DNA of 64,000 nucleotides. Origin: Lachnospiraceae bacterium (GTDB lineage Bacteria; Bacillota; Clostridia; Lachnospirales; Lachnospiraceae). The translations under genes were made by a program, and so were the position numbers. Numbering within the stretch: the first letter of the stretch is position 1; each line of letters opens with the position of its first letter. Shown here piece by piece: positions 23,882 to 63,954 of the stretch. Below the pieces are notes generated by a model, which did no database searches, had not been told where the DNA came from, and saw only the letters and a list, made by a program, of their open reading frames with translations. The stretch is taken from contig JAFXQX010000033.1 in NCBI GenBank assembly GCA_017526745.1, forward strand, positions 124,001 to 188,000. Direction: 5' to 3'.

Positions 23882-24832
23882 TCAATCTGCAAAGACAAGC
23901 TCAAATGCATATCCCTCAATATCAATATTAGCTGAGAAACTGCCTGCATCAGTAGATGTGTTGTCGAATATCTTAACATTACCATTATTATCTACGCCCA
24001 TAAGCTTAAACTTCCTACCATTCTTAACAAACTGAGCAGGAATCTTGAATGATATTGAACCATTCTTTGCCGTATAGGTTGTCTGGCCCCCATTAGTCAC
24101 GGAAAAGGCAAATGCCTTTGCATAGCCTGCAGGGGTTGCTGCCGCAAACGCTGCCTCAGCAAGAGGGCCGGGCTCTTCAGCCTTGATGCCTGCGTTGCCA
24201 AGTGAAGCTGTTGAACTGCCTGTGCTAAAGGAAAAGGCACTTGAAAGCGTTGCTGTGTAAGGTGACGAATATGTAGTTACAGTCGCTGATGTGCTGCCGG
24301 AAGAACTATTATTGGTGGCAGGTTCTTCAGATGAGGAATCATCATCGTCATCATCGTCATGGCTACCGGATGATTTGCTCTTATCATTGCCACTTTCACC
24401 TTCATCTTTACTATCGGAACTATCAGAATCCTTACTATCAGAACTATCAGAACTATCAGTATCTTTACTATCGGAGTCTCCGCTATCACCGGTTACCGTA
24501 TAAACATAGTAGGGGCCACCCGGATCACCATCATACTTTGTTCCATTCTGAGATGCCGGCTGTCCATTTATAGTAACCTTTGTATTCTCGTCAGCTACAT
24601 ACTTCTCTGAATAATCTGTATCCGGATCAGCCAACGTATTAAACACAACTGTACCGGATTCTGCGTCATATTCATCGACAAATACTGAATCCGGCGGATC
24701 ACATGACCAGTCATCTTCGCTGTTTACATCAACTGATTCAACATGTCCTCCCTCAGCATAGGCCAACGATACGCTTCCAAATGCAAGGCAGAGCGTCAGT
24801 CCTAAAGTTGTAATAAAACGTAATTTCTTCAT
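23882..24832 (-). CDS. Secreted Asp/Ser-rich protein of unknown function
   Basis: 316 residues with an excellent AAGGAGG ribosome site before the ATG. A signal peptide (MKKLRF..., cleavage after AYA at about 26) shows export; no anchor or LPxTG motif is seen. Residues about 27-110 form one small domain. Residues about 112-165 are a low-complexity linker of Ser-Asp-Ser-Lys-Asp repeats ending in seven Asp. After another Ser/Thr-rich stretch the last 75 residues (NGSISFKIPAQFVKNGRKFKLMGV) look like a compact beta domain. The acidic linker could bind calcium or simply space two surface domains. It is monocistronic. No family was recognised. Confidence 0.75.
   Translation of the reverse strand: MKKLRFITTLGLTLCLAFGSVSLAYAEGGHVESVDVNSEDDWSCDPPDSVFVDEYDAESGTVVFNTLADPDTDYSEKYVADENTKVTINGQPASQNGTKYDGDPGGPYYVYTVTGDSGDSDSKDTDSSDSSDSKDSDSSDSKDEGESGNDKSKSSGSHDDDDDDDSSSEEPATNNSSSGSTSATVTTYSSPYTATLSSAFSFSTGSSTASLGNAGIKAEEPGPLAEAAFAAATPAGYAKAFAFSVTNGGQTTYTAKNGSISFKIPAQFVKNGRKFKLMGVDNNGNVKIFDNTSTDAGSFSANIDIEGYAFELVFAD
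24406..24486 (-). repeat. Coding repeat of the Ser-Asp-Ser-Lys-Asp linker
   Basis: Tandem degenerate units of about 12-15 bases (variants of ctatcagaa, ctttactatcgga on the plus strand) encode the SDSKD repeats of the secreted protein. Such arrays can change length by slippage. The units are in frame, so changes of whole codons would alter only linker length. Confidence 0.6.
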
Positions 24833-24880: not shown

Positions 24881-24910
24881 CCTTTAGGATTACGATTTTA
24901 TCCTTTAGGA
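24881..24910 (-). promoter_or_regulatory. Paired CCTTTAGGA sites flanking the -10 box (candidate operator)
   Basis: CCTTTAGGA occurs at 24881-24889 and again at 24902-24910, 21 bases apart, i.e. on the same face of the helix two turns away. The second lies in the perfect dyad TCCTTTAGGA (24901-24910). One copy sits just upstream of the -10 box and the other over the expected start of transcription, where a repressor would act. No regulator can be assigned from sequence. Confidence 0.35.
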
Positions 24911-24922
24911 GAAAAAAAACAA
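24895..24922 (-). promoter_or_regulatory. Candidate promoter of the secreted-protein gene
   Basis: On the minus strand TTGTTT (24917-24922), a 16-base spacer and TAAAAT (24895-24900), about 63 bases before the ATG. The -35 box overlaps the 3' end of the upstream terminator. Box match is moderate; the flanking paired sites support a regulated promoter here. Confidence 0.35.
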
Positions 24923-24943
24923 GAGTCATCTTTGTGACACTTG
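24912..24943 (-). terminator. Rho-independent terminator of the GT2 gene at 24992-25936
   Basis: On the minus strand CAAGTGTCA (24935-24943) pairs with TGACTCTTG (24920-24928) with one T-T mismatch and a 6-base loop, directly followed by eight Ts (24912-24919). It lies about 50 bases after the GT2 stop. This is a textbook intrinsic terminator. Confidence 0.8.
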
Positions 24944-24991
24944 TCTGAAAACCCGGCATAACATATAGAAAATGAACTGTCGGCCGAAGCA

Positions 24992-25936
24992 TTAATTATC
25001 GAAATTGATCCGTCTTTCTTCTATAACTACGGGTCTGTTGATCACACGGGTATTGATGTTTAGAATGTATTCGCCGAGCAGGCCCAAGAAGAGCAGCTGG
25101 ATGCCACCGAGAAGGAATACGCCCAGAGTTATCGGAGCGTTACCGACAACGAAGTTTTCCCAGTCAATAAGCTTCATGATAAAGTAATACAGCGCAACGA
25201 TAAAGCTGACAAATGAACAGAAGGCTCCGGCAAAGGTAGCCAGGCGAAGGCCAACCTTCGTATATGACGTAAAGCTCAGCATAGCAGCATCATACAGGCT
25301 GTAGAAATTGTTATGGGTCTTGCCCGCACGCCTTCTCTCCTGGGTATACTGGTATTTCTTCATGTTAAATCCCGCCCCATACTCGGCAACTATACCGCGA
25401 AGGAAGGGGATGGGATCATCAAGCTGCCTGATCAGTTCGATAAAACTCTTATCATAAAGGCCAAAGCCCGTGAAATGCTCGATCATCTTTACAGGCGACA
25501 TTTTCATGATCACCTTGTAGTAGATGGAGCGGAGCAGGTAAAGGATGGGATTTTCCTTGCTGGATGATTTTACCCCCACGACGATCTTATGGCCCATCTC
25601 CCACTCCCTGATAAATTCGGGGATCAGTTCGACCGGATCCTGGAAATCGCAGCAGATCGGAATGACGCAGTCACCCGTACACTGGCACATGCCGTAAAAC
25701 GGCGAATTGAACTGACCGAAATTGGAGATATTAAAGATAGCCTTTATCCTTGTGTTTTTGGCGCACAAGTTCTCTATAACATCCCTTGTGCCGTCGGTTG
25801 AACAGTTATCGATAAAAACTATCTCGTAATCGTATCCCGATAATGCTTCGGAAAACACGTTTATTATTGAATTTGCCATCAGTTCCGCATTCTCAACTTC
25901 GTTGTAGCACGGAACCATAATACTTATTTTTTTCAC
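24992..25936 (-). CDS. Membrane GT2 glycosyltransferase, polyprenyl-phosphate type (GtrB/DPM1-like)
   Basis: The start is set at the GTG at 25936 (VKKISIMVPCYNE), because the TTG that would begin a longer frame (25972) falls inside the promoter -35 box. About 314 residues. The GT-A domain has SIMVPCYNEVENAE, VFIDNCSTDGTRDVI and CDFQDPVELIPEF. Two C-terminal membrane spans (GAFCSFVSFIVALYYFI and TLGVFLLGGIQLLFLGLLGEY) are those of GtrB/ArnC-like enzymes that load a sugar on a polyprenyl phosphate for use by a GT-C transferase outside. The GT-C-like protein at 29861-31507 is a possible user. It has its own promoter and terminator. Confidence 0.82.
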   Translation of the reverse strand: MKKISIMVPCYNEVENAELMANSIINVFSEALSGYDYEIVFIDNCSTDGTRDVIENLCAKNTRIKAIFNISNFGQFNSPFYGMCQCTGDCVIPICCDFQDPVELIPEFIREWEMGHKIVVGVKSSSKENPILYLLRSIYYKVIMKMSPVKMIEHFTGFGLYDKSFIELIRQLDDPIPFLRGIVAEYGAGFNMKKYQYTQERRRAGKTHNNFYSLYDAAMLSFTSYTKVGLRLATFAGAFCSFVSFIVALYYFIMKLIDWENFVVGNAPITLGVFLLGGIQLLFLGLLGEYILNINTRVINRPVVIEERRINFDN

Positions 25937-25943
25937 GTCGATT

Positions 25944-25972
25944 ATTCTACCATTTTTGAAATATACAGTCAA
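25944..25972 (-). promoter_or_regulatory. Sigma-A promoter abutting the GT2 start codon
   Basis: On the minus strand TTGACT (25967-25972), exactly 17 bases, then TAGAAT (25944-25949), again with TGG just before the -10 box. The GTG at 25936-25934 begins 7 bases after the -10 box, so transcription should start at or next to the start codon. That would leave almost no leader. Confidence 0.55.
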
Positions 25973-26003: not shown

Positions 26004-27923
26004 TTATGGAGACTTTCTTAACTCTTTTATCAGTTGGTCAATCTTGGCGGAACGTTTCGTCAAATATTCATGTATCTCCTTGCATTCGGATTCGTCCCAT
26101 TTGCCGGATTCCAGACACTTTTTGATATGCTCCTCGGAGAAGCTGGTATTACCAAGTCTCTCCAGTTTGTCTGCAAACCTCATTCTGAAATCTTCATTTT
26201 CAATTAGTTTATTGAAGAGCTCTATGTGCGTATGGTAATTCTCATCAATACGCACTTCATCGGAACGAAAGATCTGATCAACGTCATGTATTATCCATCT
26301 GAATCTTCCGTCACCGTATGATTTGTCATACGGCCTGATAACCCGCCAGTACTCATCATTCTGAACTTCCTGCCAATCGGTGTTGCCTATCCACGTATTG
26401 ATTGCAAAGTAATCCATGTAGTTATCTGTATCCATCATCGTTTTGATAGTGGAATAGTTCTCAGGGACCGAAAGATCATTTGCCTGTATGAAATCATATA
26501 GATCAAAGAACTGTAGTCTCAGTTTTTCGGACTCTTCTTCATCGGCATAGTCTGTTTCCAGAAATGTCTCATTCATGATCATGAGATTATCCGGATCTAT
26601 CCCAAAATGGTCAAAGAAATACCTTTCATCAAGTTTCTGCCGAATATATACATTGTTCCAGAATTCTCCGTTTACGAACAATGCAGCTCTGTCCGTAGTC
26701 TTCTGTTTGATTATGCTCTCTTCGGAGATCAGATCAAGAGCTACTGATTCCCTAAAGCTGCTGCGGAGTAGCAGTCCATCTGATCTGTACTGCTCATTAT
26801 CAAAAAAGTCATACTCAAAGACATCTGAACCGCTGTAGCAGTTCCTGGCTTTCACTTGGAAATTCTTGTCCCGACGGTTTCTGGTGGATTTACCATGAAC
26901 CTTGAGCCCGCATTTTTGCTCAAAAACCTTTATACCGCTTCTGAAGTAATCCATATCGGCAGGGATCTCCCACTCTCTTCCTTTTTTCCTGAAGTTTGCC
27001 CGAGGTTCATCGCCTTCCATACCGTTTCTATACCATTCATCATACTCTGATCCGGTAGATACTATGCCGCAAGGTCCAAACAGATCATCAGTATCCGCTA
27101 CAATGGAAATGATGTTTTTGTATTTATCTCCACAGAAGAAATACTCACGTGTTACTACATCACTTATGTTGCCTGACTCATCAACGGCAACAGCTCTTAC
27201 AACAAATGCCTTGTCCACCGGGAACTCAGGAGGCTTAGGCACAATTCTGTGCTTGCCCTCCGCTGTCGTATATTCCTCTTCCAAGTACCGGAACACAGTG
27301 TTGGGAACGCTTACCACTCTGTTCTCTTCAGCTGAGCGGTCATACACATGTATCGGTTCTGTATATGGGGCGCTGTTTTCATCAGGTTCATCACCGTTTA
27401 ATGTGAAAAAAATCCTGCAATCACCTTTAGCGGACAGTTTCAGATCGAACTCATCATGGTAAATACCGCTTTCCCGTGAGAAAACAGGCGAAGCGGGTTT
27501 CATCGCACCAGTGTACTTGAAGATGATATTACCTTGGTCATCTGACAGATAGACAGTTTCAGTACCTGAGCTCTTCAGAGCAAAATTCCAGCTTGGATCA
27601 AGTTTGATCTTCTGACTGCCTCCCGGCTCCAGTGATACCCCATCGAGAGGCAGTTTTTGCAGATCATGCCTGCTATCGGAGAGCCAAAATCCGGTCAGGT
27701 CGAAGGCTTGATCGGTCATGTTCCTGATATGAACATAATCGGCAAGTTCAATGGAACCGTCTTCCTTTACAACGCGGGGGCTGTCAGGACGGACATCATA
27801 CAATATCAGTTTTCCAAGTCCGCCAACTTCCTTAGATCTGGGGCCCGTACCAAGAAGGAACAGGATGAACGCTGACATCAAAGACAATATAGTAAGTGAA
27901 AAGACCTTTTTCCTAATCTTCAA
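26004..27923 (-). CDS. CotH-kinase family surface protein (copy 1), lamin-tail and chitobiase-like domains
   Basis: 639 residues from a TTG at 27923 that overlaps the stop of copy 2 (TTGA), with AAGGG nine bases ahead. An N-terminal membrane anchor or signal (8-25) is followed by a lamin-tail-like beta domain (about 36-138), a chitobiase-C-terminal-like domain (about 145-195, FFTLNGDEPDE...PYTEPI) and a CotH kinase domain (about 268-620). The kinase has GLKVHGKSTRNRR and FRWIIHDVD (Asp pair near 547), the metal and ATP site of CotH. CotH-type kinases phosphorylate secreted proteins; in Bacillus the targets are coat proteins. Here the target is unknown and the protein faces outward. Last gene of the operon. 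Confidence 0.82.
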   Translation of the reverse strand: MKIRKKVFSLTILSLMSAFILFLLGTGPRSKEVGGLGKLILYDVRPDSPRVVKEDGSIELADYVHIRNMTDQAFDLTGFWLSDSRHDLQKLPLDGVSLEPGGSQKIKLDPSWNFALKSSGTETVYLSDDQGNIIFKYTGAMKPASPVFSRESGIYHDEFDLKLSAKGDCRIFFTLNGDEPDENSAPYTEPIHVYDRSAEENRVVSVPNTVFRYLEEEYTTAEGKHRIVPKPPEFPVDKAFVVRAVAVDESGNISDVVTREYFFCGDKYKNIISIVADTDDLFGPCGIVSTGSEYDEWYRNGMEGDEPRANFRKKGREWEIPADMDYFRSGIKVFEQKCGLKVHGKSTRNRRDKNFQVKARNCYSGSDVFEYDFFDNEQYRSDGLLLRSSFRESVALDLISEESIIKQKTTDRAALFVNGEFWNNVYIRQKLDERYFFDHFGIDPDNLMIMNETFLETDYADEEESEKLRLQFFDLYDFIQANDLSVPENYSTIKTMMDTDNYMDYFAINTWIGNTDWQEVQNDEYWRVIRPYDKSYGDGRFRWIIHDVDQIFRSDEVRIDENYHTHIELFNKLIENEDFRMRFADKLERLGNTSFSEEHIKKCLESGKWDESECKEIHEYLTKRSAKIDQLIKELRKSP

Positions 27924-29833
27924 TTTCTTAAACCCTTTATGAGTTTTTCGACCTTATCTGATCGATTTCTCAGGTACTCTTCTATTTCACCGCGGCCGGC
28001 TTCGTCCCATTTGCCAGAATAAAGGCATTTGTGCACATTATCGTTCGAAAAACACGTATCTCCAAGTTCTTCAAGCCTGTCGGCAAAGCGCTTTTTGAAA
28101 TCATCATTTGCAAGAAGCTTGTTAAACAGTTCAAAATTAGTCTTATAATTCTCGTCAAAGTATACCGACTCGGTATCAAGTATTAGATCTCCGTCATGGA
28201 TCAGCCATCTGAATCTTCCGTCTCCGTATAACTCATCATACGGTTCAATGACCCGCCAGTATGTGTCGTTGTGTGCTTCCTGCCAGTCACTGTTTCCAAT
28301 CCACAGGTTGATAGCAAAATAGTCTATGTAACTGTCAGTATCCATCATTGTTTGGATCTTGGAATAGTTCTCCGGGATCGAAAGATCATTGGCCTGGAGA
28401 TAGTCGTATAGGTCGAAGAAATATCTTCTTAGTCTGTCAGCTTCCTCTTCATTCGAATAATCTGTTTCCAGAAACGTTGAACTCATGATCATGAGATTAT
28501 CCTCTGCCATCCCAAAATGATCTGAAAAATACATCTCATCCAATCTTTGCTTGAGATATACATCGTTCCAGAACTCCCCGTTTATGAACAATGCCACTCG
28601 GTCTGTTGTCTTCTGTTTGATAATACTTTCATCTGCGATCAAGTCAAGAAAAAAGGCCTCCTTAAAGCTGTCACGAAGGAGCAATCCGTCGGATCTGTAC
28701 GGTTCATTATCGAAAAAGTCATACCCAAAGACATCTGATCCACTGTAACAGTTTCTGGATCTGATCTGGAAGTTTTTGATCCTGCGTCTTCTTGTGGAGT
28801 TACCTTGCAGCTTAAGCCCGCACTTTTGGCCAAACACGCATATCCCATCTCGGAAATACTCCATATCGGCCGGAACTTCCCATTCCCTTCCATGTCGCCT
28901 GAAGTTCGTCGTCGGCGCATCACCATCCATGCCATTTAAATACCACTCATCATATTCCGGTCCGGTAGACAAGATCCCACCGGATCCAAATAGATTATCA
29001 GGATCTGTAACTATCGAAATGATGTTTTTATACTTGCTGCTGCAGAAAAAATATTCACGGGTAATAACATCGCTCCGGTTGCCATACTCATCGATTGCTA
29101 CAGCCCTTACGATAAAAGCCTTATCCACAGGTTCCTCAATTGGTTGTGGAACCTCAACGTATTCACCATCCACGTCAGTAAATCCTTCCTCCAGATAGCG
29201 TTCCACCGTGTTGGGAACATTTACTGCGCTGTTTTCCTCGTTCGATCTGTCATATACGCGTATCGGTTCGCTGTATAACTCACTTTCCTCATCAGGTTCT
29301 TCTCCGTTAAGTGTATAAAATATCCTCTGTCCATCTGTTGCTTCAAGTTCCAGATCAAATTCATCATCAACTATCCCGCTGTCCTTTGAAAACCTTGGGG
29401 CATCGGGTTTCATCGCGGAAGTATATACATACACTATACTGCCGCCCGGATTCGACAAATACACGCTCTCTTCGCCTGAACTTTTAAGCGCGAAATTCCA
29501 ACTCGGATCAAGCTTTATCTTCTGTGTGCCTCCCGCTTCAAGCACGACACCATCAAGAGGTAGTTTGTGCGGATCTTTTCTGTCATCTGACAGCCAGAAC
29601 CCTGTAAGGTCGTAAGGATGATCAGAGGTATTCCTGATATGTACGTAATCGGCAAATTCAATTGACCCGTCATCCTTGACTACGCGAGGGCTGTCGGGAC
29701 GGACATCATACAATATCAATTCTCCAAGCCCGCTGGCTTCCCGTGATCTTGGGCCTGTACCAAGAACGAACAGGATCGTAGCTGACATCAAAGACAATAT
29801 GATAAAGGAATACATGTTTTTCCAGTTTCTCAT
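27920..29833 (-). CDS. CotH-kinase family surface protein (copy 2)
   Basis: 637 residues, the closest relative of copy 1 throughout: the same anchor, lamin-tail-like domain (LILYDVRPDSPRVVK), chitobiase-like domain (IFYTLNGEEPDE) and CotH kinase domain. The kinase Asp pair is in FRWLIHDGD near residue 547, and the basic block is GLKLQGNSTRRRR. Similarity to copy 1 is high along the whole length, so these two look like a tandem duplication within the operon. It lies 27 bases after the GT-C-like gene stop and overlaps copy 1 by four bases. A shared or sequential set of substrates on the cell surface is an inference. Confidence 0.82.
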   Translation of the reverse strand: MRNWKNMYSFIILSLMSATILFVLGTGPRSREASGLGELILYDVRPDSPRVVKDDGSIEFADYVHIRNTSDHPYDLTGFWLSDDRKDPHKLPLDGVVLEAGGTQKIKLDPSWNFALKSSGEESVYLSNPGGSIVYVYTSAMKPDAPRFSKDSGIVDDEFDLELEATDGQRIFYTLNGEEPDEESELYSEPIRVYDRSNEENSAVNVPNTVERYLEEGFTDVDGEYVEVPQPIEEPVDKAFIVRAVAIDEYGNRSDVITREYFFCSSKYKNIISIVTDPDNLFGSGGILSTGPEYDEWYLNGMDGDAPTTNFRRHGREWEVPADMEYFRDGICVFGQKCGLKLQGNSTRRRRIKNFQIRSRNCYSGSDVFGYDFFDNEPYRSDGLLLRDSFKEAFFLDLIADESIIKQKTTDRVALFINGEFWNDVYLKQRLDEMYFSDHFGMAEDNLMIMSSTFLETDYSNEEEADRLRRYFFDLYDYLQANDLSIPENYSKIQTMMDTDSYIDYFAINLWIGNSDWQEAHNDTYWRVIEPYDELYGDGRFRWLIHDGDLILDTESVYFDENYKTNFELFNKLLANDDFKKRFADRLEELGDTCFSNDNVHKCLYSGKWDEAGRGEIEEYLRNRSDKVEKLIKGLRN

Positions 29834-29860
29834 GATAATAATGCTTTTCTTAAAGGTTCT

Positions 29861-31507
29861 CTACGGCGTATACAACACAACCTCATAGGGCATGTTGCCA
29901 AGTTGAAGGTCAAGAGATTCCAGGGGTTGATAGCCCATTTGCAGAGGCGCATCGTCGCAAAAGGGATTGAACTGTTCGAACTTTTCGGCAGATATCAGTA
30001 CAAATTCCCCGTTTTCTGCCATTTGCTGCTGTTTTTTCCTGAATGCTATATTCTGATCGACGATCTTCCGGATATATGGAAAATGCTCAACAGGGAATCC
30101 TGCTCTCTCAAGGCCTGTTATGGTCCAATCCGATACTTCGCCGTCATGGCCGTATACACAGTAAGGACTGCCGTTTGCAAATGCTTTATAGGCTAGGCTT
30201 CTTGAATAGAATACTTCGCCTTCTTTTGCGTATTCATCGACATATGCGTAGGCTTTCTCCCAATTCGATATTTCCTCGGGGGTGAGGATATGAAGAGGGA
30301 GTTTGCCGAAGCCGAAGTAGATGGATGTTGCTGCGATCAGGGCATAAAAGCATATGTATAACATTTCATTTCTTATATGTCTCTCTTGTTCTGTACTGTT
30401 CACATTTTCTATTGAATCGCGTGATTTTACGTTTTCCATCTGTTTCATTCGTTCGAGACAGATAAGTGCCGTTATGGAAATCGACGGGAGCCAAAGCTGG
30501 AGGAAATATGAGAGGAATGCTCCATCGTTTCGTCCGAGAATAAAGAGGGGCACAAGCATAACGAACGAATTTATGGCGCAGAAGGCCAGAGCATCGTTCT
30601 CCACGATTCTGACATTCCTCAGCCTCTCGTTGTTCTGCCTGAGTCTGCGGATCCCCATTACCGCAGCAACAATGATCACAATAAACAGGGCTGCAAACGC
30701 TATAAACAGATACTTAAACTGCTCAAAAAACGTTGATAGCTGCGCTCCGCCTCCAACTACTGTGCCAAGATAAGTAAAGAGGAAGGCTTTCGTCCAATAT
30801 AAAGGCCAAAATTCAGTAATAACGACAACTATGGCCGCATTTATGGCACAAGTCCATATTGCGAGCTTAAATGCTTCCTTTCTTGAATATAACAGCATAT
30901 AAACAAATATGCCCGCTGCTATGAATACGAAATACTGCTTGGTATAAAACGCCAGGGTTATCCCTATGGCACACCAGAAAGGCTTGTGATCTACTTCCCG
31001 GTTTACGGCAACATACATTGTAAGGAGAGATATAAACAGGCCCAGGTCGTCCGGGGCTGCCGAGATATACCCGAATCTCCAGTGGCAGAACATGAACATG
31101 ATCGCTGCCAAGGCTGGGCCTATGGGAGTCCTGGTGTGATCCTTGATCATAAGTGCTCCAAGTATTCCGGAGCCTATAATGCATAAAAGGGAAATGACAA
31201 AATGGGCGGTAACGGACGTACAACACGTGATTTTGGCTATTGAGGCAGCTATAAGACTGTTAAGAAAAGGATAATCATAGTTTACGGGAGGAACTTCCCA
31301 ATCAAGTGACGAGAGCGTATATGGACTCTTGCCCTGCAGGAATGTGTTTGTAAGTGCAATGTTGCTTGGCTCCAGGAGCTCTTTCGGGTATGGAAGTGCT
31401 ATAATGCCGGCATATACAATTCGGCATACAAAGAATATGCCAGCCAAAAGAACTGCCAGGGCGATCAATTTATATAGTATTCTCAGTGTTTTATCTTCTA
31501 AGTTCAT
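29861..31507 (-). CDS. Multi-span membrane protein, GT-C glycosyltransferase-like
   Basis: 548 residues with about 10-11 membrane spans and an extracytoplasmic C-terminal region of about 130 residues (from about 415, IYFGFGKLPLHILTPEE onward). Early residues GKSPYTLSSLDWEVPPVNYDYPFLNS form the first large outer loop with several acidic and aromatic residues, where GT-C enzymes (ArnT, PMT, DUF2029 types) have their catalytic Asp/Glu. It would use a polyprenyl-phosphate sugar, perhaps supplied by the GT2 at 24992. It sits between CotH copies 3 and 2, overlapping copy 3 by 17 bases. No subfamily is certain. Confidence 0.6.
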   Translation of the reverse strand: MNLEDKTLRILYKLIALAVLLAGIFFVCRIVYAGIIALPYPKELLEPSNIALTNTFLQGKSPYTLSSLDWEVPPVNYDYPFLNSLIAASIAKITCCTSVTAHFVISLLCIIGSGILGALMIKDHTRTPIGPALAAIMFMFCHWRFGYISAAPDDLGLFISLLTMYVAVNREVDHKPFWCAIGITLAFYTKQYFVFIAAGIFVYMLLYSRKEAFKLAIWTCAINAAIVVVITEFWPLYWTKAFLFTYLGTVVGGGAQLSTFFEQFKYLFIAFAALFIVIIVAAVMGIRRLRQNNERLRNVRIVENDALAFCAINSFVMLVPLFILGRNDGAFLSYFLQLWLPSISITALICLERMKQMENVKSRDSIENVNSTEQERHIRNEMLYICFYALIAATSIYFGFGKLPLHILTPEEISNWEKAYAYVDEYAKEGEVFYSRSLAYKAFANGSPYCVYGHDGEVSDWTITGLERAGFPVEHFPYIRKIVDQNIAFRKKQQQMAENGEFVLISAEKFEQFNPFCDDAPLQMGYQPLESLDLQLGNMPYEVVLYTP

Positions 31508-33407
31508 TTATAGCTTCTGCCATCCTTATCTTGCGGTTCAGGAGGAATGATTCTATTTCCGGAAGTCGGGGATCATCCCATTTGCCGCTGTGGAGAACCT
31601 GTTTGATATTTTGATCAGAGAAGGATGTTTGTCCCAGTTCTTCAATGCGTTTGGCAAGATCTGCCCTAAACAGGGAGCTGTTCAAAAGGCCATTCACAAG
31701 ATCTCCGGATTCTGAAAACCATTCCTGTTCCCAAGTGATCTGATCATTGAATACATTGTCACCGTCATGTATGATCCAGCGAAATCGTCCGTCACCATAA
31801 TGATTATCATACGGGATCTTTGCTCTCCAATACGTGTCATTCTCATATTCCGCCCAATCGGCGCATCCGACCCATGTATTGATTGAGAAATAATCAAGAT
31901 AACTGTCCATATCAATCATGGTTTGGAGCTTAGAATAGTTGTCCGGATCGTTAAGATCATTTTCTTTTGCGAATTCGTCTATATCAAGATACCAGTTTCT
32001 TGCCTCCTCGAGTGCGGCGTCATCATCCACACCGATCTCGCCAAAAGACTCGCTTAATACAAGAAGATTATCTTCCGGAATACCAAAATGATCAAAGAAG
32101 TACTTCTCATCTATCTTCTGTCTGATATATACGTTGTTGTAAAACTCTCCATTTATGAAGAGAGCAACTCTCCCCGTTGTATGCTGTTTGATGATCTCCT
32201 CATCCTTTATAAGGTCCAGGAATAGCGATTCCCTAAAACTATCATCAAGTGTTATGCGGTCAGGAAGATAGTCTTCACCATCAAAAAATTGATAAGGAAA
32301 TACGTCAGATCCGTTATAGGAGTTTCTCGCAAAGAGCTGGAAATTCTTGATCCTTCGTTCTCTGGTTGTCCTGCCTTGAAGCCGCAACCCGTATGTTCCG
32401 CTCAGAACGCTATTCTCGTTGTAAAACAGGTTGATCGCTGCTGGTATCTCCCATTCTCTGCCTTTTTTCATATAGTTGGGATCATCATATTCTGCTTCTT
32501 GATCTTCCAGATACCACTTATCATATCCTATTCCGGTCGACAGTATTCCGTAGTCCCCGAACAGATCATATGTATCAGCTATAATAGACAATACCTTGTC
32601 ATACTTGTCACCGCAGAAAAAGTATTCGTTCGTAACGATTTCGCTACTGTTACCGTAATCATCCATTGCCACGGCTCTGACAATAAAAGCTTTATCCACG
32701 GGATCGTCAACAATATGCCAATAGGCTTTAGGATGTTCCGGATCATGTTCATCCGTATCCTCTTCAAGATAGTCCTTAACTACATTTGGGATGCTTACAA
32801 CCATATTGGGCTCACTTGACCTGTCATACACGTGAATAGGACCGGTGTACAGAATTCCGGTTTCGGACGGATCACTGCCATCAAGAGTATATAACACCTT
32901 ATATTTGCTGTCTGAACTTATAGTAAGATCAAATTCACTGTCGTAAAACCCACTCTTCACTGATAGTACAGGTTTTTCGGGTTTCATACTTGGTCTGTAT
33001 TGAAAAATGACATTCCCTCGGGAGTCGGACAAATATATATCCTCATCGCCTTCTCGATGAAGGCCGAAGTTCCAACTGGGATCAAGTTTGATCATTACAT
33101 AACCAAACGGCTCTATAACTACACCGTCAAGCGGCAGTTTTTGAAGATCACCCCTCTTATCTGACAAAAACAATCCCGTTAGATCATACGGATGGTCTGT
33201 CAGATTCCTGATCTTGAGATTATCGGCAAATTCTATGGTACCGTCATCCTTGACTATCCTGGGGCTGTTAGGACGTACATCCGCTATCACGAGTTCTTTG
33301 GGAGACTTAGCATGCGGAGCCACATACACAATTGCCGTCACCACGAGTGTGAGGACGGCAAGTATAAAGCATACATAATATGTTTTTCCGTGTTTCATAA
33401 CTATCAT
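31491..33407 (-). CDS. CotH-kinase family surface protein (copy 3, divergent)
   Basis: 638 residues with the same order of parts as copies 1 and 2: anchor (about 9-27), lamin-tail-like domain, chitobiase-like domain (VLYTLDGSDPSETG...YTGPI) and CotH kinase with GLRLQGRTTRERR and FRWIIHDGD near residue 547. It is clearly more different from the other two than they are from each other, so it is the older paralogue. An ATG at 33398 would align better with the other copies than the one at 33407; neither has a clear ribosome site. It follows DUF4956 by 10 bases. Confidence 0.8.
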   Translation of the reverse strand: MIVMKHGKTYYVCFILAVLTLVVTAIVYVAPHAKSPKELVIADVRPNSPRIVKDDGTIEFADNLKIRNLTDHPYDLTGLFLSDKRGDLQKLPLDGVVIEPFGYVMIKLDPSWNFGLHREGDEDIYLSDSRGNVIFQYRPSMKPEKPVLSVKSGFYDSEFDLTISSDSKYKVLYTLDGSDPSETGILYTGPIHVYDRSSEPNMVVSIPNVVKDYLEEDTDEHDPEHPKAYWHIVDDPVDKAFIVRAVAMDDYGNSSEIVTNEYFFCGDKYDKVLSIIADTYDLFGDYGILSTGIGYDKWYLEDQEAEYDDPNYMKKGREWEIPAAINLFYNENSVLSGTYGLRLQGRTTRERRIKNFQLFARNSYNGSDVFPYQFFDGEDYLPDRITLDDSFRESLFLDLIKDEEIIKQHTTGRVALFINGEFYNNVYIRQKIDEKYFFDHFGIPEDNLLVLSESFGEIGVDDDAALEEARNWYLDIDEFAKENDLNDPDNYSKLQTMIDMDSYLDYFSINTWVGCADWAEYENDTYWRAKIPYDNHYGDGRFRWIIHDGDNVFNDQITWEQEWFSESGDLVNGLLNSSLFRADLAKRIEELGQTSFSDQNIKQVLHSGKWDDPRLPEIESFLLNRKIRMAEAINELRR

Positions 33408-33417
33408 CTGGAACAGA

Positions 33418-34092
33418 TCAGAAGCTTACCTCTCCGTCATGAGACAATACCGAAACAGAGGATACACCCGATACTGCCGAAACAGCCTTTGAAAGGGCGG
33501 GAACATCCTTGGTGCGAAGCTCATATACAAGCTCAAGTGTCCCGTTTGTAAGTACACGGGATTTTTCCTCAAAGTAAGCTGAATTCTTCTTGACCTCCTC
33601 AAGGATCGATGAATCCGCATCCTGAGACGAGTTTACTATGAGGATCATGGGGCTCTTAAGAACGGGTATACGGTCGAGAATGTAGATGACTACTGTAGCT
33701 ACAACCGAAAGGATGAGTGCTATCTCAACAAGTCCCGCTCCGCATATGATACCTACGGAAATTGACCAGAACAGGAAGGCAAGATCCATCGGATCCTTGA
33801 CTGCGGTCCTGAAGCGGACGATCGAAAGAGCACCGACCATACCAAGGGAGATAACTACGCTTGACTGGACTGTCAGGATGATGGCTGCCGTTATGACTGA
33901 CATAAGGACAAGCGATGCGTTAAAGCTCTTGGAGTAGAATGTCTTCTTCGTCATGAACCTGTATACCGCATAGATGTATAGGCCGAGAAGCACCGCAAAG
34001 CCGATGACTACGACTATCTGCTTGGCAGAAAGCTCAATATTTGCGTATCCTTCAAGGAATGATTTTTTGAAAATGTCTGTAAAGGTTATCAT
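33418..34092 (-). CDS. DUF4956 membrane protein
   Basis: 224 residues with four to five membrane spans in the first 145 residues. The conserved DUF4956 core is plain: GALSIVRFRTAVKDP (87-101), followed by DLAFLFWSISVGIICGAG. The last 70 residues form a cytoplasmic ACT/ferredoxin-like-looking alpha-beta domain (LELVYELRTKDVPALSKAV). GGAGG precedes the ATG. Its function is not established. DUF4956 genes are often found beside VTC-domain and CotH genes, as here, which points to a shared process at the membrane. Confidence 0.85.
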   Translation of the reverse strand: MITFTDIFKKSFLEGYANIELSAKQIVVVIGFAVLLGLYIYAVYRFMTKKTFYSKSFNASLVLMSVITAAIILTVQSSVVISLGMVGALSIVRFRTAVKDPMDLAFLFWSISVGIICGAGLVEIALILSVVATVVIYILDRIPVLKSPMILIVNSSQDADSSILEEVKKNSAYFEEKSRVLTNGTLELVYELRTKDVPALSKAVSAVSGVSSVSVLSHDGEVSF

Positions 34093-34142
34093 GGTTGCCT
34101 CCGTTACTGTTAATAATTACTGTTGTCCTGTTACATTATATC

Positions 34143-34868
34143 CTAAAAATGCATTGCCACAACCCCGTTATGGGGGAATCTGCGTGCAAGAATATACTTG
34201 GAAAATGTCTCTCTTCGCATTCTGCCGTGCTCGATGGCATGAGCGATCTGATCAGGCAGGAATGCGTCATATTTTACCTCAAGAAGGTTTTGTCCCTTGG
34301 ATAACACCGGGCGGGATGACAGTTCCCTATCGCATAGGAACAGATCGATCTCCGAGGAGGAGCGGATATTTCTGTCAAATGTCACCCTTGTGTTACCTTC
34401 TGCGGCCACAAACGGTGTTCTGTCATATTCAACGATGATGGCCGGATGAAGCGCATGGGTCTTGATCTCGGTTAAAAAGAGATTAAGAAGCGGAGCATTA
34501 TCGGAAGATATAACAGCTGTCCTGGCCATTATACGGCTGTAGGTGTCTTTATCAATGGCACAGCTCTGCTTGGAAATAAGGTCGCTCTTTCTGATCTTAC
34601 GCTCCAGGCTGATGAAGCTGTCGCTCCTGTCATATATCCTGATACGCCATTTGCTTCGCTCATCGGTACCGTCGATATTCTCGTTAAGGTACCTGTCCCT
34701 GTAATCGTCAAAATACAGGCTCCTGATACTGTAGAACCCCTTCTCGCCCACATGATGATCCTTCTTCATAAGACAGCTTATGCGGCTCTCCATTCCCTTC
34801 AGATTGATCTCGGGCTCTACATATTTGTGTTCGTGTCTGAACTTATCAAGGTCTTCAAACATGATCAT
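34143..34868 (-). CDS. VTC-domain protein (polyphosphate polymerase-like)
   Basis: 241 residues. The tunnel-fold VTC domain is shown by FRHEHKYVEP (10-19), YSIRSLYFDDYRDRYLNEN, KWRIRIYD, FISLERKIRK, VEYDRTPFV and the closing LLEVKYDAFLP. These Arg/Lys/Glu residues bind phosphate and metal in yeast Vtc4, which makes polyphosphate from ATP. Bacterial stand-alone forms mostly lack a tested activity. The ATG overlaps the TGA of the CDP-glucose dehydratase by four bases. With DUF4956 and CotH kinases downstream, a phosphotransfer role linked to surface modification is plausible but inferred. Confidence 0.85.
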   Translation of the reverse strand: MIMFEDLDKFRHEHKYVEPEINLKGMESRISCLMKKDHHVGEKGFYSIRSLYFDDYRDRYLNENIDGTDERSKWRIRIYDRSDSFISLERKIRKSDLISKQSCAIDKDTYSRIMARTAVISSDNAPLLNLFLTEIKTHALHPAIIVEYDRTPFVAAEGNTRVTFDRNIRSSSEIDLFLCDRELSSRPVLSKGQNLLEVKYDAFLPDQIAHAIEHGRMRRETFSKYILARRFPHNGVVAMHF

Positions 34869-35968
34869 GACTCCATATATTCTCGGATCTGCTCATCCGT
34901 GCATTTTATAAGGTCTCCGTTTTCAGCATAAACATGGTACCATTCCACAAGTTTTTCCATTGCCTTGTCGATATCCCACCTGGGATGCCATGAAAGCTCT
35001 CTCTTGATCTTCGTACAGTCAAGCTTCAGGAAATTGGCCTCGTGAGGGCCTCCGGAGGACTTGTTGATCCACTTGATATCCTTGATCGTTTTGCCGGTCT
35101 CTGTATCCGCCATCACATACGTGTTCCATTGATCACAGAACTTCGTGGCTATCTGAGCTGTGGTCACGGCATCCTTATCATCCGGGCCGACGTTGTAGCA
35201 TCCTTCGATCTTCGGATCATCATACTGCATGGCTGCGACCATCAGGTAGCACACTACGGGCTCAAGAACATGCTGATAGGGCCTTATGGAATCAGGGTTT
35301 CTGACTATTATATCCTCACCTGCCATTGCCGCCCTTACGCAGTCGGGAATGATCCTGTCCTTTGCAAAATCTCCTCCGCCTATGACGTTACCGGCGCGCA
35401 TTGTGGTAACTGCTATGCCTTTGTCATGAAGAAAAGAATTGCGATAGCTGTCGGTGACAAGCTCGCTGCATGATTTTGAATTGGAGTACGGGTCAAATCC
35501 GCACAGTTCCTCGTCCTCACGGTAGCCTTCCGCGCGCTCCATGTTGCGGTAAACCTTATCGGTAGTAACATTTATGACTGATCTTACGGAATCCGTCAGG
35601 CGGCAACACTCGAGGACATTAACCGTTCCGATAACGTTCGTCTCATACGTGTATACGGGATCTTCATATGAAAGTCGCACCAGTGGCTGGGCAGCCATGT
35701 GTATCACTATCTCTGGGCGGGATTCTTCAAAGGTCCGGCGAAGCTTTTCAAGATCCCTTATATCTGCGTAGACGTTTGTAAGGTCATCCGTGTCCTTATC
35801 AAGCCCAAGCAGTTCAAAGAGACTGGGATCTGTCGGAGGCTTAAGGGCGTAACCTGTAATGATCGCACCCGCATTAATCAGGAGCCTGGTCATCCACGAG
35901 CCCTTAAAACCGGTATGTCCCGTGATGAGGACCCTTTTGCCTTTGTAGAAATCCATGATATCACTCAT
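34865..35968 (-). CDS. rfbG: CDP-glucose 4,6-dehydratase
   Basis: 367 residues, an extended SDR. Its opening FYKGKRVLITGHTGFKGSW (7-25) and the SINVTTDKVYRN-type catalytic stretch are diagnostic of RfbG. The YSNSKSCSE segment (Tyr-x-x-x-Lys) and RAGNVIGGGDFAKDRIIPD are also typical. It makes CDP-4-keto-6-deoxyglucose, the entry to CDP-3,6-dideoxyhexoses and related sugars. No CDP-glucose synthase or downstream 3-dehydrase is in the window. As first gene of the CotH operon it suggests that a deoxysugar is part of the same surface structure. The start at 35968 lies at the predicted transcription start; a second ATG at 35956 is possible. Confidence 0.85.
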   Translation of the reverse strand: MSDIMDFYKGKRVLITGHTGFKGSWMTRLLINAGAIITGYALKPPTDPSLFELLGLDKDTDDLTNVYADIRDLEKLRRTFEESRPEIVIHMAAQPLVRLSYEDPVYTYETNVIGTVNVLECCRLTDSVRSVINVTTDKVYRNMERAEGYREDEELCGFDPYSNSKSCSELVTDSYRNSFLHDKGIAVTTMRAGNVIGGGDFAKDRIIPDCVRAAMAGEDIIVRNPDSIRPYQHVLEPVVCYLMVAAMQYDDPKIEGCYNVGPDDKDAVTTAQIATKFCDQWNTYVMADTETGKTIKDIKWINKSSGGPHEANFLKLDCTKIKRELSWHPRWDIDKAMEKLVEWYHVYAENGDLIKCTDEQIREYMES

Positions 35969-35975
35969 GGTTATG

Positions 35976-36004
35976 ATTATATCAAGCAGGCGATGAAGTG
36001 TAAA
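35976..36004 (-). promoter_or_regulatory. Sigma-A promoter of the CotH/VTC operon, abutting the start codon
   Basis: On the minus strand TTTACA (35999-36004), exactly 17 bases, then a perfect TATAAT (35976-35981) with TGA before it as extended -10. The first ATG (35968) is 7 bases beyond the -10 box, so the mRNA would be leaderless or start at the second ATG (35956) with a leader of about 13 bases. Confidence 0.6.
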
Positions 36005-36041: not shown

Positions 36042-37340
36042 CTACATTTTATTCATCACTATCCTTATCCTGGTGCCAAGGTCCTCTCTGGATGTTATCT
36101 CGAAGTGGCCGTTGTGCTTGTCGACGATCCACTTGGCTATGGACAGACCGAGGCCTGTTCCGCCGAAGCTCCTTGCCTCATCGGACCGGTAGAACCGCTC
36201 AAACATATGCTCAACATCGGATTCTTTCATGCCGATGCCGGTGTCCTGGACCTGTACATATACTTCCGAGTCGGATACGAAGCCGACCGAGAGGATTATC
36301 TCATCCTTCTCGCGTGTGTATTTGGCAGAGTTGTCCACAAGTATCCTTACGGCTTGCTTGATAAGGCCTTCATCGGCCATCACATATACGGGATCGGTCG
36401 GACATGAGTACTTGTATATATGTTCCTCGTCGATCATGAGCGATTCCTCATATACGGTCTGCATCATCTCGCACAGATCCACCTGCTCGGGATTGATGAC
36501 AGTACGTCCGGCGTCGCCTCGGGCCAGGAACAGGAGCTGTTCCACGAGATGCTTCATATGATCGGCTTCATTCTTGATCGCATTTATCGACTCATCAAGA
36601 ACCTTTTCATCCTCACGTCCCCATCTGGAGAGCATGTTCGCATAGCCTTCTATAACGGCGATGGGAGTCCTGAGCTCATGCGAGGCATCGTTTACAAAGC
36701 GCGCCTGCTGCCTGTTGCTCTCACGTATGCGCATAAGAAGGTTGTTCATCGCCCTCTCGATACCGAGAAGATCCTCGTCCCCGAATGATAGCCTGGCCTC
36801 CTGGGTAGGCTCCAGGCTAGTTATCTTCTCTTCGATCAGATGGTACTTATCCTCCGACAGCTCCAACTGTGAAAGCGCTTCGACACTTGCTGCCATCTCA
36901 TCAAGAGGTGCGAACATCTTCTTGATGCGGTGCATCTCTCCCGAATATGAGATCAGGTCAAATATGAACTCTAGGAAGAATATCCCCGAGCAGAAAACGG
37001 CTATTACCGCAACCGGCGCAAATATGGCCTCCGATAATATGACCTTTCCGGCATCCGTTATCACCGAATACCTGAGCGTCCGAAGACTTGTGATAAACTG
37101 ACTGAAAGTGTTTATCCCGCCCTCCAGCGGAAACAGGTCTATACGCCTTGTCCTAGTAAAAAAAGAAACGGCCTGATCGGCCATATATTCCCTTGCTGCT
37201 AGCCAGACAACGATCATAACCGCGATCATGAAGATCATCTGCGCAAAATGCATGCCTATCTTCATGCGGACTCGCTGGCCTGCAAGCCGGTGTCTTATCG
37301 ACCTTACCCGGCCCCTTGCATTATTCTGATTTGACGACAT
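36042..37340 (-). CDS. Sensor histidine kinase of a two-component system
   Basis: 432 residues. Two membrane spans (about 30-48 and 106-130) bracket a short outer loop of about 57 residues, so sensing is probably at or within the membrane. A HAMP-like region follows, then the H-box FVNDASHELRTPIAV with His221. The ATPase domain has the N-box (VDNSAKYTREKDE), the G1 motif VQDTGIGM, the F-box FERFYRSDEARS and the G2 motif GTGLGLSIA. It overlaps the response-regulator gene by 20 bases, so it belongs with it. The signal is unknown; the ArlS/CssS-like build suggests envelope conditions. Confidence 0.9.
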   Translation of the reverse strand: MSSNQNNARGRVRSIRHRLAGQRVRMKIGMHFAQMIFMIAVMIVVWLAAREYMADQAVSFFTRTRRIDLFPLEGGINTFSQFITSLRTLRYSVITDAGKVILSEAIFAPVAVIAVFCSGIFFLEFIFDLISYSGEMHRIKKMFAPLDEMAASVEALSQLELSEDKYHLIEEKITSLEPTQEARLSFGDEDLLGIERAMNNLLMRIRESNRQQARFVNDASHELRTPIAVIEGYANMLSRWGREDEKVLDESINAIKNEADHMKHLVEQLLFLARGDAGRTVINPEQVDLCEMMQTVYEESLMIDEEHIYKYSCPTDPVYVMADEGLIKQAVRILVDNSAKYTREKDEIILSVGFVSDSEVYVQVQDTGIGMKESDVEHMFERFYRSDEARSFGGTGLGLSIAKWIVDKHNGHFEITSREDLGTRIRIVMNKM

Positions 37341-38046
37341 ATCCTACTCCTCTGACCGTTTCGATCATTTTGATATCAAACGCTTCGTCTATCTTGGAGC
37401 GCAGGAATCTGACATATACATCAACTATATTTGTCTCGCCCACATAATCGTAGCCGCACACTTTTTCCAAAAGGGTATCCCTTGACAGGACTATGTCCTG
37501 ATTGGAGAGGAAGACCTTGAGCATCTCAAACTCCCTGTTTGTGAGCGTGATCTCCTTACCGTCATAGGTGACCCTGTGCTTTTTCTCATCAAGCATAAGG
37601 CTTTTCCAAACGTAGATCCCGTTTGCGGGATCATGCATGTCTTTGGATCCCTTATCAGACAAGTCACCGCCTCCCGCCTCTTTTACGGGATGAAGCTTTA
37701 ATGCGACCCTCACCCTTGCCAGGAGTTCTTCAATGGCAAAAGGCTTGGTGATATAGTCGACCGCTCCGGCATCAAGGCCGGATACCTTATCCATGACCGC
37801 ATCCCTTGCGGTAAGAAGTATCACAGGGGTCGGATGTGTATTCCCGAGCCTGCGTAAAACTTCCAGGCCGTTAAGGCCCGGAAGCATTATATCGAGCAGT
37901 ATGAGGTCATATGAATTGTTCGTCGCAAGTTCAAGCGCCTCGCGCCCGTCGCCGCTCTTGGACACTTCATATCCTTCGTGAACAAGCTCCAGTTCTATGA
38001 AACGTGCAAGTTTTTCTTCGTCTTCAACGACAAGTATATGTGCCAT
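37321..38046 (-). CDS. OmpR/PhoB-family response regulator
   Basis: The start is the ATG at 38046 (MAHILVVEDEE), seven bases after AGGGGTG; the frame extended to 38130 runs through a hairpin repeat and is not used. 241 residues. The receiver domain has acidic VEDEE (7-11), the phosphorylated Asp52 in LLDIMLPG, and Lys in ITKPFAIEE. A winged-helix DNA-binding domain follows (LTNREFEMLKVFLSN through VDVYVRFLRSKID). It is the partner of the kinase encoded downstream. It has a somewhat long linker between domains, with a Gly/Ser/Asp-rich stretch. Confidence 0.92.
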   Translation of the reverse strand: MAHILVVEDEEKLARFIELELVHEGYEVSKSGDGREALELATNNSYDLILLDIMLPGLNGLEVLRRLGNTHPTPVILLTARDAVMDKVSGLDAGAVDYITKPFAIEELLARVRVALKLHPVKEAGGGDLSDKGSKDMHDPANGIYVWKSLMLDEKKHRVTYDGKEITLTNREFEMLKVFLSNQDIVLSRDTLLEKVCGYDYVGETNIVDVYVRFLRSKIDEAFDIKMIETVRGVGYVVKSE

Positions 38047-38062
38047 TACTTCACCCCTATAG

Positions 38063-38147
38063 GAGACTCGCGCATTAGGATCGACTGACGTCGATGGGCG
38101 CTCGTCGTGCAGTAAGGAATCCTCCCGCAAGTGGGTCCCTCCTTACA
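38063..38147 (-). repeat. Post-stop hairpin repeat, copy 1 (two hairpins)
   Basis: About 85 bases that match 40592-40675 over most of their length. Hairpin A has an outer stem GTAAGGA/TCCTTAC (38112-38118 with 38140-38146) around a CCC...GGG inner stem; the TAA stop of the DUF4342 gene lies inside its arm. Hairpin B is ATCGAC/GTCGAT (38080-38085 with 38090-38095). There is no T-run, so it is not an ordinary terminator. It lies between the DUF4342 gene and the response regulator. Confidence 0.7.
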
Positions 38148-62239: not shown

Positions 62240-62724
62240 TTATCTTTCTTCTTTTCAAGCGTCATTTTTCTGGAAATGAAGTTATATACCATGACAACGC
62301 CGGTCGCAAACATCTTGACAGCGGCTGTTACCGCCGAGGGGTATGACTTTACCGCCCACGGTGCTGCTGCATTGCATGCGATGACACCGAAATACAGTAT
62401 CAGCTCGTTTATGCCAAGGCCAATGGCCGACAGAAGGGCAAATATGGCAAATTCCTTCTTGCGGTCAAGGTCGTCCCTCCGCTCGAAAACGAACTTCATG
62501 CTCATGAAATAGTTGAAAACGAGCGAGATACAAAAGCCGAAAAGGCCTCCGACAGTGGCAGCGCCTGCCACATCCATCCCGAAAGCCCTGCAAAGTGCCG
62601 AAACACCGAGCGTTATGACAAAGTCTATAACAAAGGACAGTCCGCCCACCACACCGAACTTCAGTATCTGGGCGAACAGTTTCTTTCTCTTATCCTGTTT
62701 TGATATCACATTTTCTTCCATCAT
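62236..62724 (-). CDS. GtrA-family membrane protein
   Basis: 162 residues with four membrane spans. The N-terminal KFGVVGGLSFVIDFVITLG (about 17-35) is typical GtrA, and the third span carries the usual small-residue pattern (GLGINELILYFGV). GtrA proteins are thought to help move polyprenyl-phosphate sugars or to anchor GtrB. Here a DPM1-like GT2 and a GT87-like protein are close by, completing a GtrA/GtrB/GT-C type module. Its ATG directly follows the stop of the GT87-like gene. Confidence 0.88.
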   Translation of the reverse strand: MMEENVISKQDKRKKLFAQILKFGVVGGLSFVIDFVITLGVSALCRAFGMDVAGAATVGGLFGFCISLVFNYFMSMKFVFERRDDLDRKKEFAIFALLSAIGLGINELILYFGVIACNAAAPWAVKSYPSAVTAAVKMFATGVVMVYNFISRKMTLEKKKDK

Positions 62725-63954
62725 CTATCCCCTTATCGATCCGTCTTTCCTTATCGATCTTACCCCCTTTATCGTTGCTGCGATCGTAAACAGATAATAT
62801 GTTATGCCCACGATCAGCTTTGAGGCCGCATTCTCATCAAATATCCGAAGGACGAAACATAGCATGAACATAAGGAGTGCATACCATATGAACATGATAC
62901 AGTCCCGGCGGCCGCTCTTATCATCCTGAATATCTCCCGGATATTGCCTTACAAACATCGCTGCGGCCGCGGAAAATACGAAGAAATCGTATGTTCTGTG
63001 ATATGTTATCACAAGCGACCACAATATCAGTATCGAAAACAGGAGATTTGCGGCGTCTTCCGGCATCTTTAAGGCCAGATACAGCAGTAAGGCCGCAATG
63101 ATAACCGCCGCAGCCGCATACAGCCCCTGCGGAAGAAATACTCCGAGATCTATCCCGCCTTCAGATGCCAGGACCGATGCAACCTTAAGCGGTGCCGTTA
63201 TCAGGTATATAAAGCTCTTCCCCAGCCAGACGGCGGCAAATGCCGTCATTATCACATGTATCATCACCGAGGCCGCAAACTCCCTGTACCTTTTCCTGAA
63301 GAGAAAATACAGGACAAGAGGTGCGGTAAGCGTGTACTTGAAGTACGAGACCGCCAGGCAGAGCGTGATGCCGGCAGATCTCATCAGGCCCGCCCGGTCA
63401 CCGGGGTGCCTGTCGATAAATACCGCAAGCATAAAGAAAAAGAAGGCGAATAATGTATGCTGCCCTACACCGAGCTGGTTGCGGTACGGTGTTCCTGCGA
63501 TCATAAGGAGCATCACTGCCGCAAAATCCGTCCTGTCCGAGTGCTCAAAAAAGGTCCTCCCAAGGAGCCATATGATCCCTGCGGTAAATCCGATGTTAAG
63601 CACTGCCCATACGATCTTTGCCGCCTGCGGCGAAAAGACTGTCATCGGTGCAAGAAGCATAAGGAGTGACGGAAACTGGTTGGCCTCCATCTTCTGCTTA
63701 AGGCCTCTGTCGGTAAACATCCTGTAAAACCGGTCGAGTGGCTCTATACCGGCTGTCCGTGAAGGCTCTAGCGACAGTTCATAAGGATCCAGCCGCATCG
63801 TGAGCGCTTTTGCGGCATCCCACTGGAAATCCTGGGAAAACTCCGCAGCGTTCTGCAGTCCTTTGATGACCGAAACAAGAGCAAGAGCCGCCAGCATAAC
63901 AAGCACTGTGGCCCTTAAGGCTTTATTATCCTTCCATTTCCTTAACAACTGCAT
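62725..63954 (-). CDS. DUF2029/GT87-like membrane mannosyltransferase-type protein
   Basis: 409 residues with about ten membrane spans. The outer loop near residues 40-80 (FQWDAAKALTMRLDPYELSL) has the acidic residues expected at the GT-C catalytic site, and QLGVGQHTLFAFFFFML with NQxGxGQ is the typical DUF2029 motif. It uses polyprenyl-phosphate sugar on the outside of the membrane. The family is best known for mycobacterial PimE and arabinofuranan enzymes. It overlaps the tail of an upstream gene by 29 bases, so it is in the same operon. Confidence 0.8.
   Translation of the reverse strand: MQLLRKWKDNKALRATVLVMLAALALVSVIKGLQNAAEFSQDFQWDAAKALTMRLDPYELSLEPSRTAGIEPLDRFYRMFTDRGLKQKMEANQFPSLLMLLAPMTVFSPQAAKIVWAVLNIGFTAGIIWLLGRTFFEHSDRTDFAAVMLLMIAGTPYRNQLGVGQHTLFAFFFFMLAVFIDRHPGDRAGLMRSAGITLCLAVSYFKYTLTAPLVLYFLFRKRYREFAASVMIHVIMTAFAAVWLGKSFIYLITAPLKVASVLASEGGIDLGVFLPQGLYAAAAVIIAALLLYLALKMPEDAANLLFSILILWSLVITYHRTYDFFVFSAAAAMFVRQYPGDIQDDKSGRRDCIMFIWYALLMFMLCFVLRIFDENAASKLIVGITYYLFTIAATIKGVRSIRKDGSIRG

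Follow-up and report, generated by a model that had tools for sequence, protein, structure and literature searches.

What does a gut Lachnospiraceae bacterium do with a single operon that combines a deoxysugar dehydratase, a VTC domain protein, a DUF4956 membrane protein, three CotH kinase-like proteins and two glycosyltransferases? We have analyzed a window of 64,000 nucleotides (the whole stretch of DNA presented above), which is part of contig JAFXQX010000033.1 (C43 of G000 in our numbering) in a 2.6 Mb genome (GCA_017526745.1). The eight-gene operon found there points, short of proof, to a surface polymer that the cell modifies with both sugars and phosphate. We read the locus as an operon whose sugar arm and phosphate arm modify a polymer of the envelope; this reading is tentative and leans slightly towards doubt. 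It builds on the gene content and packing of the operon, the folds and catalytic residues of its proteins and its conserved association; from these we infer the reactions, the phosphate donor and the acceptor. The donor used by the CotHs, the role of DUF4956 as an exporter and the acceptor are its weakest links.

Open reading frames and profile matches give the order, 5' to 3' on the minus strand, as rfbG, VTC, DUF4956, CotH3, GT-C, CotH2, CotH1 and GT2. The block from rfbG to CotH1 (26004-35968) is densely packed, and intergenic distances inside the operon range from -17 to +50 bp. The leading gene, rfbG (34865-35968), encodes a CDP-glucose 4,6-dehydratase of 367 aa (TIGR02622, 432 bits against a cut-off of 278). 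It is followed by genes for a VTC domain protein of 241 aa, a predicted polyphosphate polymerase (34143-34868; PF09359, 127.8 bits), and for a DUF4956 membrane protein of 224 aa with three predicted spans and a C-terminal soluble part (33418-34092; PF16316, 51.2 bits). CotH3 (31491-33407, 638 aa), CotH2 (27920-29833, 637 aa) and CotH1 (26004-27923, 639 aa) score 56.3, 67.2 and 70.8 bits against PF08757, whose cut-off is 23.8, and the 548-aa GT-C protein is encoded between CotH3 and CotH2 (29861-31507). The original prediction had listed seven genes; all are present at the expected place on the minus strand, and profile scores confirm the CotH, VTC, DUF4956 and dehydratase families that it named. 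It overlooked an eighth, a GT2 glycosyltransferase gene (24992-25972, minus strand; PF00535, 70.9 bits) whose product has C-terminal membrane spans and is of the polyprenyl-phosphate sugar synthase type. GT2 starts 31 bp downstream of CotH1, although its annotated TTG start may lie too far upstream, and is followed by an intrinsic terminator on the same strand (24908-24950), a hairpin of -10.8 kcal/mol and then U8.

The association of VTC, DUF4956 and CotH is non-random. Across 37 genomes of the genus, with 86 VTC places, DUF4956 lies near VTC (within 5 kb) at 82 places and CotH at 56, with about one expected by chance in either case. Among 118 other genomes of the phylum, VTC and DUF4956 occur in an identical set of 13 genomes (p about 1e-17), 11 of which also carry CotH (p about 6e-12); both p-values assume independent genomes, and since the genomes are related the evidence can be at most as strong as they indicate. 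One Oligoflexia genome also has the triad. The co-occurrence on which the original prediction had staked itself is thus strongly borne out in both genus and phylum. Pel operons, comprising PelF, PelG, two CotH, VTC, DUF4956 and DUF4832, make up only 6 of the 86 VTC places, and no Pel genes, contiguous pelF and pelG included, occur at the operon described here. A 2025 paper reported no synteny of the three genes beyond Pel loci (PMC12345266); our data correct this statement, in that such synteny is abundant in the genus. As a side observation, a second type of triad, ordered CotH-VTC-DUF4956 (L011, L056, L058 and related loci), repeatedly adjoins genes beginning MKELELKYGCNPNQKPSRIY (PurH-like by eye) and MEKLNLFRELNANSYPGRGIVIGRS.

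Would the three CotH proteins be able to act as kinases at the cell surface? Each has a single N-terminal span with basic residues before it, so that the remainder, kinase included, should face outward. A chitobiase-like domain (CHB_HEX_C_1/Fn3_assoc) exceeds its cut-off in every copy, as had been proposed. The lamin-tail-like domain proposed with it is probable: PF00932 scores of 24.5, 27.4 and 19.5 bits all fall under the Pfam cut-off of 34.3, but an AlphaFold2 model of CotH2 built from nine sequences finds the lamin A/C Ig fold in the Protein Data Bank (PDB), among matches that are mostly beta-sandwich adhesins. The model is poor (predicted local distance difference test, pLDDT, 56.5), so these matches weigh little. 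PDB searches with the single sequences of CotH2, GT-C and VTC returned no match. The catalytic aspartate pair is intact in all three copies, as N-x-D (C-x-D in CotH3, CAD) and H-D-x-D (HDGD in CotH3). In an alignment of nine CotH proteins Asp516 and Asp547 of CotH2 are invariant, as are the Lys and Gly motifs. By motif and by spacing to NFD...WDYD of 5jd9, the pair corresponds to D228 and D251 of the Bacillus subtilis enzyme, and kinase activity is accordingly a prediction from conserved residues.

CotH1 and CotH2 are sisters in the tree (support 96/100) and 70% identical, with CotH3 about 50% identical to either. The original prediction had the order of duplication right and its recency wrong: at 0.20 nonsynonymous (dN) and about 2.4 synonymous (dS) substitutions per site, with dN/dS < 0.1, the CotH1/CotH2 pair is old and has been under strong purifying selection, and the dS value rules out a recent duplication. 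CotH3 occupies the slot between DUF4956 and GT-C; in four relatives (G211, G218, G223, G224) this slot holds the only copy. Three copies occur in this genome only, the six module-bearing relatives having one each, and the suggestion that the CotHs serve several targets rests only on the retention of these copies. The six closest CotH loci lie in Lachnospiraceae genomes, some with rumen or reindeer names. Genome-wide there are seven CotH genes: besides the three of the operon, one accompanies a second VTC-DUF4956 pair, two are interleaved with GDP-fucose genes and one is of canonical type. The GDP-fucose locus (L012, G000:C43:64000-78000) has its two CotH genes alternating with gmd, fcl and a gene resembling mannose-1-phosphate guanylyltransferase/isomerase.

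If the CotHs are kinases, could VTC and DUF4956 supply the phosphate? In yeast, the VTC complex makes polyphosphate from ATP and couples this synthesis to export by way of a basic channel in the membrane (PMC9911596). The bacterial VTC family profile matches the yeast Vtc4 structures 3g3q and 5iig, and equivalents of Vtc4 K200, R264, R266, K281, R361 and R373 are kept in essentially all of 79 VTC proteins, that of the window included; in a set of 70 family members, 69-70 have them. Having both the domain and the six catalytic positions, the window's VTC is a predicted polyphosphate polymerase, for which synthesis and export of polyphosphate are likewise predicted. DUF4956 has three hydrophobic spans and a motif, VISLGMVGALSIVRxRTA, that is invariant in 11 sequences. 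In the phosphate arm as we propose it, VTC in the cytoplasm would convert ATP to polyphosphate, which would pass to DUF4956 or through it. The three CotHs, anchored in the membrane and facing outward, would attach to the surface polymer by means of their N-terminal beta domains; they would phosphorylate either this polymer or a protein associated with it, with the exported phosphate as probable donor.

The neighborhoods of VTC in the genus limit this proposal. Of the 77 that were resolved in our set of open reading frames, 52 have CotH near VTC, 16 have the carbohydrate-binding protein Cthe_2159 (PF14262) without CotH, and nine, several of them at contig ends, have neither. Our data thereby reveal Cthe_2159 as an alternative secreted partner, exchangeable with CotH. 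The 16 Cthe_2159 loci mean that VTC-DUF4956 cannot be a donor for CotH alone, and they exclude such a donor function as its general role; these loci would fit equally well with polyphosphate deposited on the cell surface or with a role in regulation. These loci include L074, L076, L078, L091, L093, L094, L096, L108, L114, L126, L142 and L144, and some have a two-component system upstream. Exported polyphosphate might then be the end product, with CotH and Cthe_2159 as matrix proteins that bind polyphosphate, calcium and polysaccharide and with kinase activity minor or lost. Such a swapping of partners while VTC and DUF4956 stay paired, together with the retained VTC active site, is what this explanation would predict, but the aspartate pair is invariant in every CotH copy and the purifying selection on CotH1 and CotH2 argues for active kinases; we consider it unlikely.

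A regulatory role can be spelled out further. VTC would bind a triphosphate or nucleotide signal, DUF4956, as an MgtC-like protein with a C-terminal ACT-like domain, would link the synthesis or secretion of the polymer to phosphate or energy status, and CotH would use ATP. Several observations agree with this. DUF4956 has weak MgtC/SapB matches. In Streptococcus intermedius, where deletion of CotH or DUF4956 homologues alters the amount of Pel and aggregation, loss of DUF4956 raised Pel and loss of CotH lowered it (PMC12345266). In 14 of the 77 loci VTC is immediately preceded by an OmpR-type two-component system whose histidine kinase belongs to the same sequence cluster as that in the window; in two more, the window included, a kinase of this cluster precedes RfbG. 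These counts are of direct adjacency, a looser count being at about chance level. Against a regulator, about 79 of 79 VTC proteins keep every Vtc4 catalytic residue that was tested, which is more than a domain that merely binds a ligand would need, and we judge it improbable. The S. intermedius results also make the earlier statement that no joint function is established slightly outdated.

How would the sugar arm work alongside the phosphate arm? RfbF, the partner of RfbG, is encoded elsewhere on the same contig (G000:C43:62800-63570) and was found in all seven genomes checked, so that both enzymes of the predicted CDP-deoxysugar pathway are encoded. The multi-span protein, called GT-C-like in the original prediction, has no Pfam family in a profile search. 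Its AlphaFold2 model (mean pLDDT 83.6) nevertheless identifies the fold as genuinely GT-C, each of the 18 PDB matches with E<=0.001 being a GT-C enzyme (STT3, AftA, ALG9, ALG12, ArnT, PglB, AglB, AftD, DPY19). The nearest NCBIfam models to GT2 are PgfS and ArnC, both below cut-off, and we describe it as GtrB/PgfS/ArnC-like. Post-polymerisation glycosylation by GT-C enzymes is established, with lipid-linked donors from GT2-type synthases and transfer outside the membrane (PMC11127046). RfbG and RfbF would make a CDP-4-keto-6-deoxy sugar, GT2 would place the sugar on undecaprenyl phosphate, a flippase would turn the lipid-linked sugar outward, and GT-C would move it onto the surface polymer on the extracytoplasmic side. 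The operon itself encodes GT2 and GT-C; a GtrA-type flippase gene lies elsewhere in the window (62263-62661, minus strand). Together with RfbG these features strengthen the glycosylation half of the original prediction; the surface phosphorylation and glycosylation system that it proposed is partly supported, through this half, the co-occurrence and the kinase aspartate pair. The GtrA-type gene adjoins a GT87 glycosyltransferase gene (62725-63954, minus strand), forming a second extracytoplasmic glycosylation pair. Two shorter GT-C paralogues, at L053 (10516-11949; G000:C43, about 95.5 kb; 477 aa) and L050 (3605-4990; G193:C28; 461 aa), lack the region around residues 270-385 and are followed by two proteins of about 400 aa.

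Do the two arms belong together at all? Each of six relatives in the genus carries VTC, DUF4956 and GT-C together with one CotH, which belongs to the same subfamily; RfbG lies near the module in five of them and a GT2 orthologue in five. Their gene order is shuffled in every case and RfbG or GT2 is sometimes absent, and triads without GT-C are common, as would be seen if a portable VTC-DUF4956-CotH cassette had come by chance to lie beside an independent glycosylation cassette in a glycan locus. Yet the same VTC, DUF4956 and CotH subfamilies accompany the same GT-C in seven genomes, the CotH and GT-C genes often overlap or nearly abut, and GT-C is rare, having been detected in just 4 of 200 genomes of the family. 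We therefore find unrelated arms distinctly unlikely. The best reading remains that VTC, DUF4956 and CotH form a portable phosphate device, coupled here to a pathway that would glycosylate side chains of a surface polymer from lipid-linked donors.

Several points weigh against modification of a polymer by two joined arms with exported phosphate as donor. Cthe_2159 takes the place of CotH at the VTC loci counted above; homology searches with DUF4956 show no channel homology and a weak relation to MgtC; and neither a flippase nor a polymerase is encoded within the operon. No phenotype was reported for deletion of the VTC homologue, the polyphosphate polymerase, of S. intermedius (PMC12345266). 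B. subtilis CotH phosphorylates with ATP in vitro (PMC7821199), and for this spore protein kinase the origin of its ATP was stated to be an unanswered question (PMC7821199). A version in which VTC and DUF4956 are a bacterial counterpart of yeast VTC that exports polyphosphate to power the CotHs, and these phosphorylate the glycan that the same operon glycosylates, is a doubtful one.

The bacterial envelope is free of ATP, and no phosphate donor is known for the extracellular CotH-like kinases of vegetative bacteria. As VTC, DUF4956 and CotH are tightly linked even in distant bacteria, polyphosphate export offers an answer that can be tested directly; if true, it would explain the source of phosphoryl groups for kinases that work beyond the ATP-containing cytoplasm. 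The operon is real, non-random and coherent, and the donor proposed for it is attractive as a hypothesis.

Where does the operon begin and end, and what may control it? The best sigma-70-like match in the region, TTTACA-17-TATAAT at 35976-36004 on the minus strand, fits 11 of 12 positions with TG before the -10 element (extended -10). It almost abuts the ATG of RfbG, so that its transcript would be leaderless. Promoter-like sites in the region number 29 against 25.5 +/- 5 expected, which is chance level, and the single clear promoter of the original prediction is therefore plausible and not certain. A two-component system (36042-38130) lies on the same strand 73 bp upstream of rfbG, with its histidine kinase at 36042-37340 and its response regulator at 37321-38130; membership of this system in the operon is uncertain, and it would be the probable regulator of the set. 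Polysaccharide genes, including Wzy and glycosyltransferases, lie beside the operon in the window, and polysaccharide genes adjoin the module in relatives too. Beyond the terminator, a minus-strand gene (23882-24832) encodes a secreted protein with 34 Ser and 19 Asp within residues 116-215, a candidate kinase substrate by composition whose synteny is not conserved. Four further places in the same genome repeat its C-terminal part, to which 19 of the 37 genus genomes have matches. We rejected it as an operon member and CotH substrate, as the terminator splits it off and homologues of its C-terminal part are scattered over other contigs.

The operon varies an accessory set that is partly known. 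Gram-positive Pel operons have CotH, polyphosphate polymerase, DUF4956 and DUF4832 as accessory genes (PMC7112168, PMC12345266), and VTC, DUF4956 and CotH likewise share a single operon with polysaccharide genes here; the partners differ, being RfbG, GT2 and GT-C, and the three CotHs are of another subfamily, with lamin-tail-like and chitobiase-like domains. In the part of the published account of the Clostridium perfringens NELoc-2 cluster available to us (PMC2879425), VTC pairs adjoin CotH and a processive-type glycosyltransferase; that account has a different glycosyltransferase and a single CotH, and reports neither RfbG nor GT-C. The CotH domain, with its D228 and D251 equivalents, resembles that of the Bacillus spore-coat protein kinase (5jd9/5jda; PMC7821199), whereas the operon's CotHs are membrane-anchored with N-terminal beta domains and the operon is not of spore-coat type. 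Like the eukaryotic VTC complex (PMC9911596), the phosphate arm has a tunnel domain of VTC type, in which the catalytic residues agree, and a three-span membrane protein adjacent to it; unlike that complex it lacks an SPX domain, no homology was detected between DUF4956 and the membrane domain of VTC, and export is predicted. The sugar arm, finally, resembles three-component GtrB/GtrA/GT-C extracytoplasmic glycosylation (PMC11127046) in joining a lipid-sugar synthase of the GT2 type to an enzyme of GT-C fold, and differs in that the GtrA gene lies outside the operon, elsewhere in the window.

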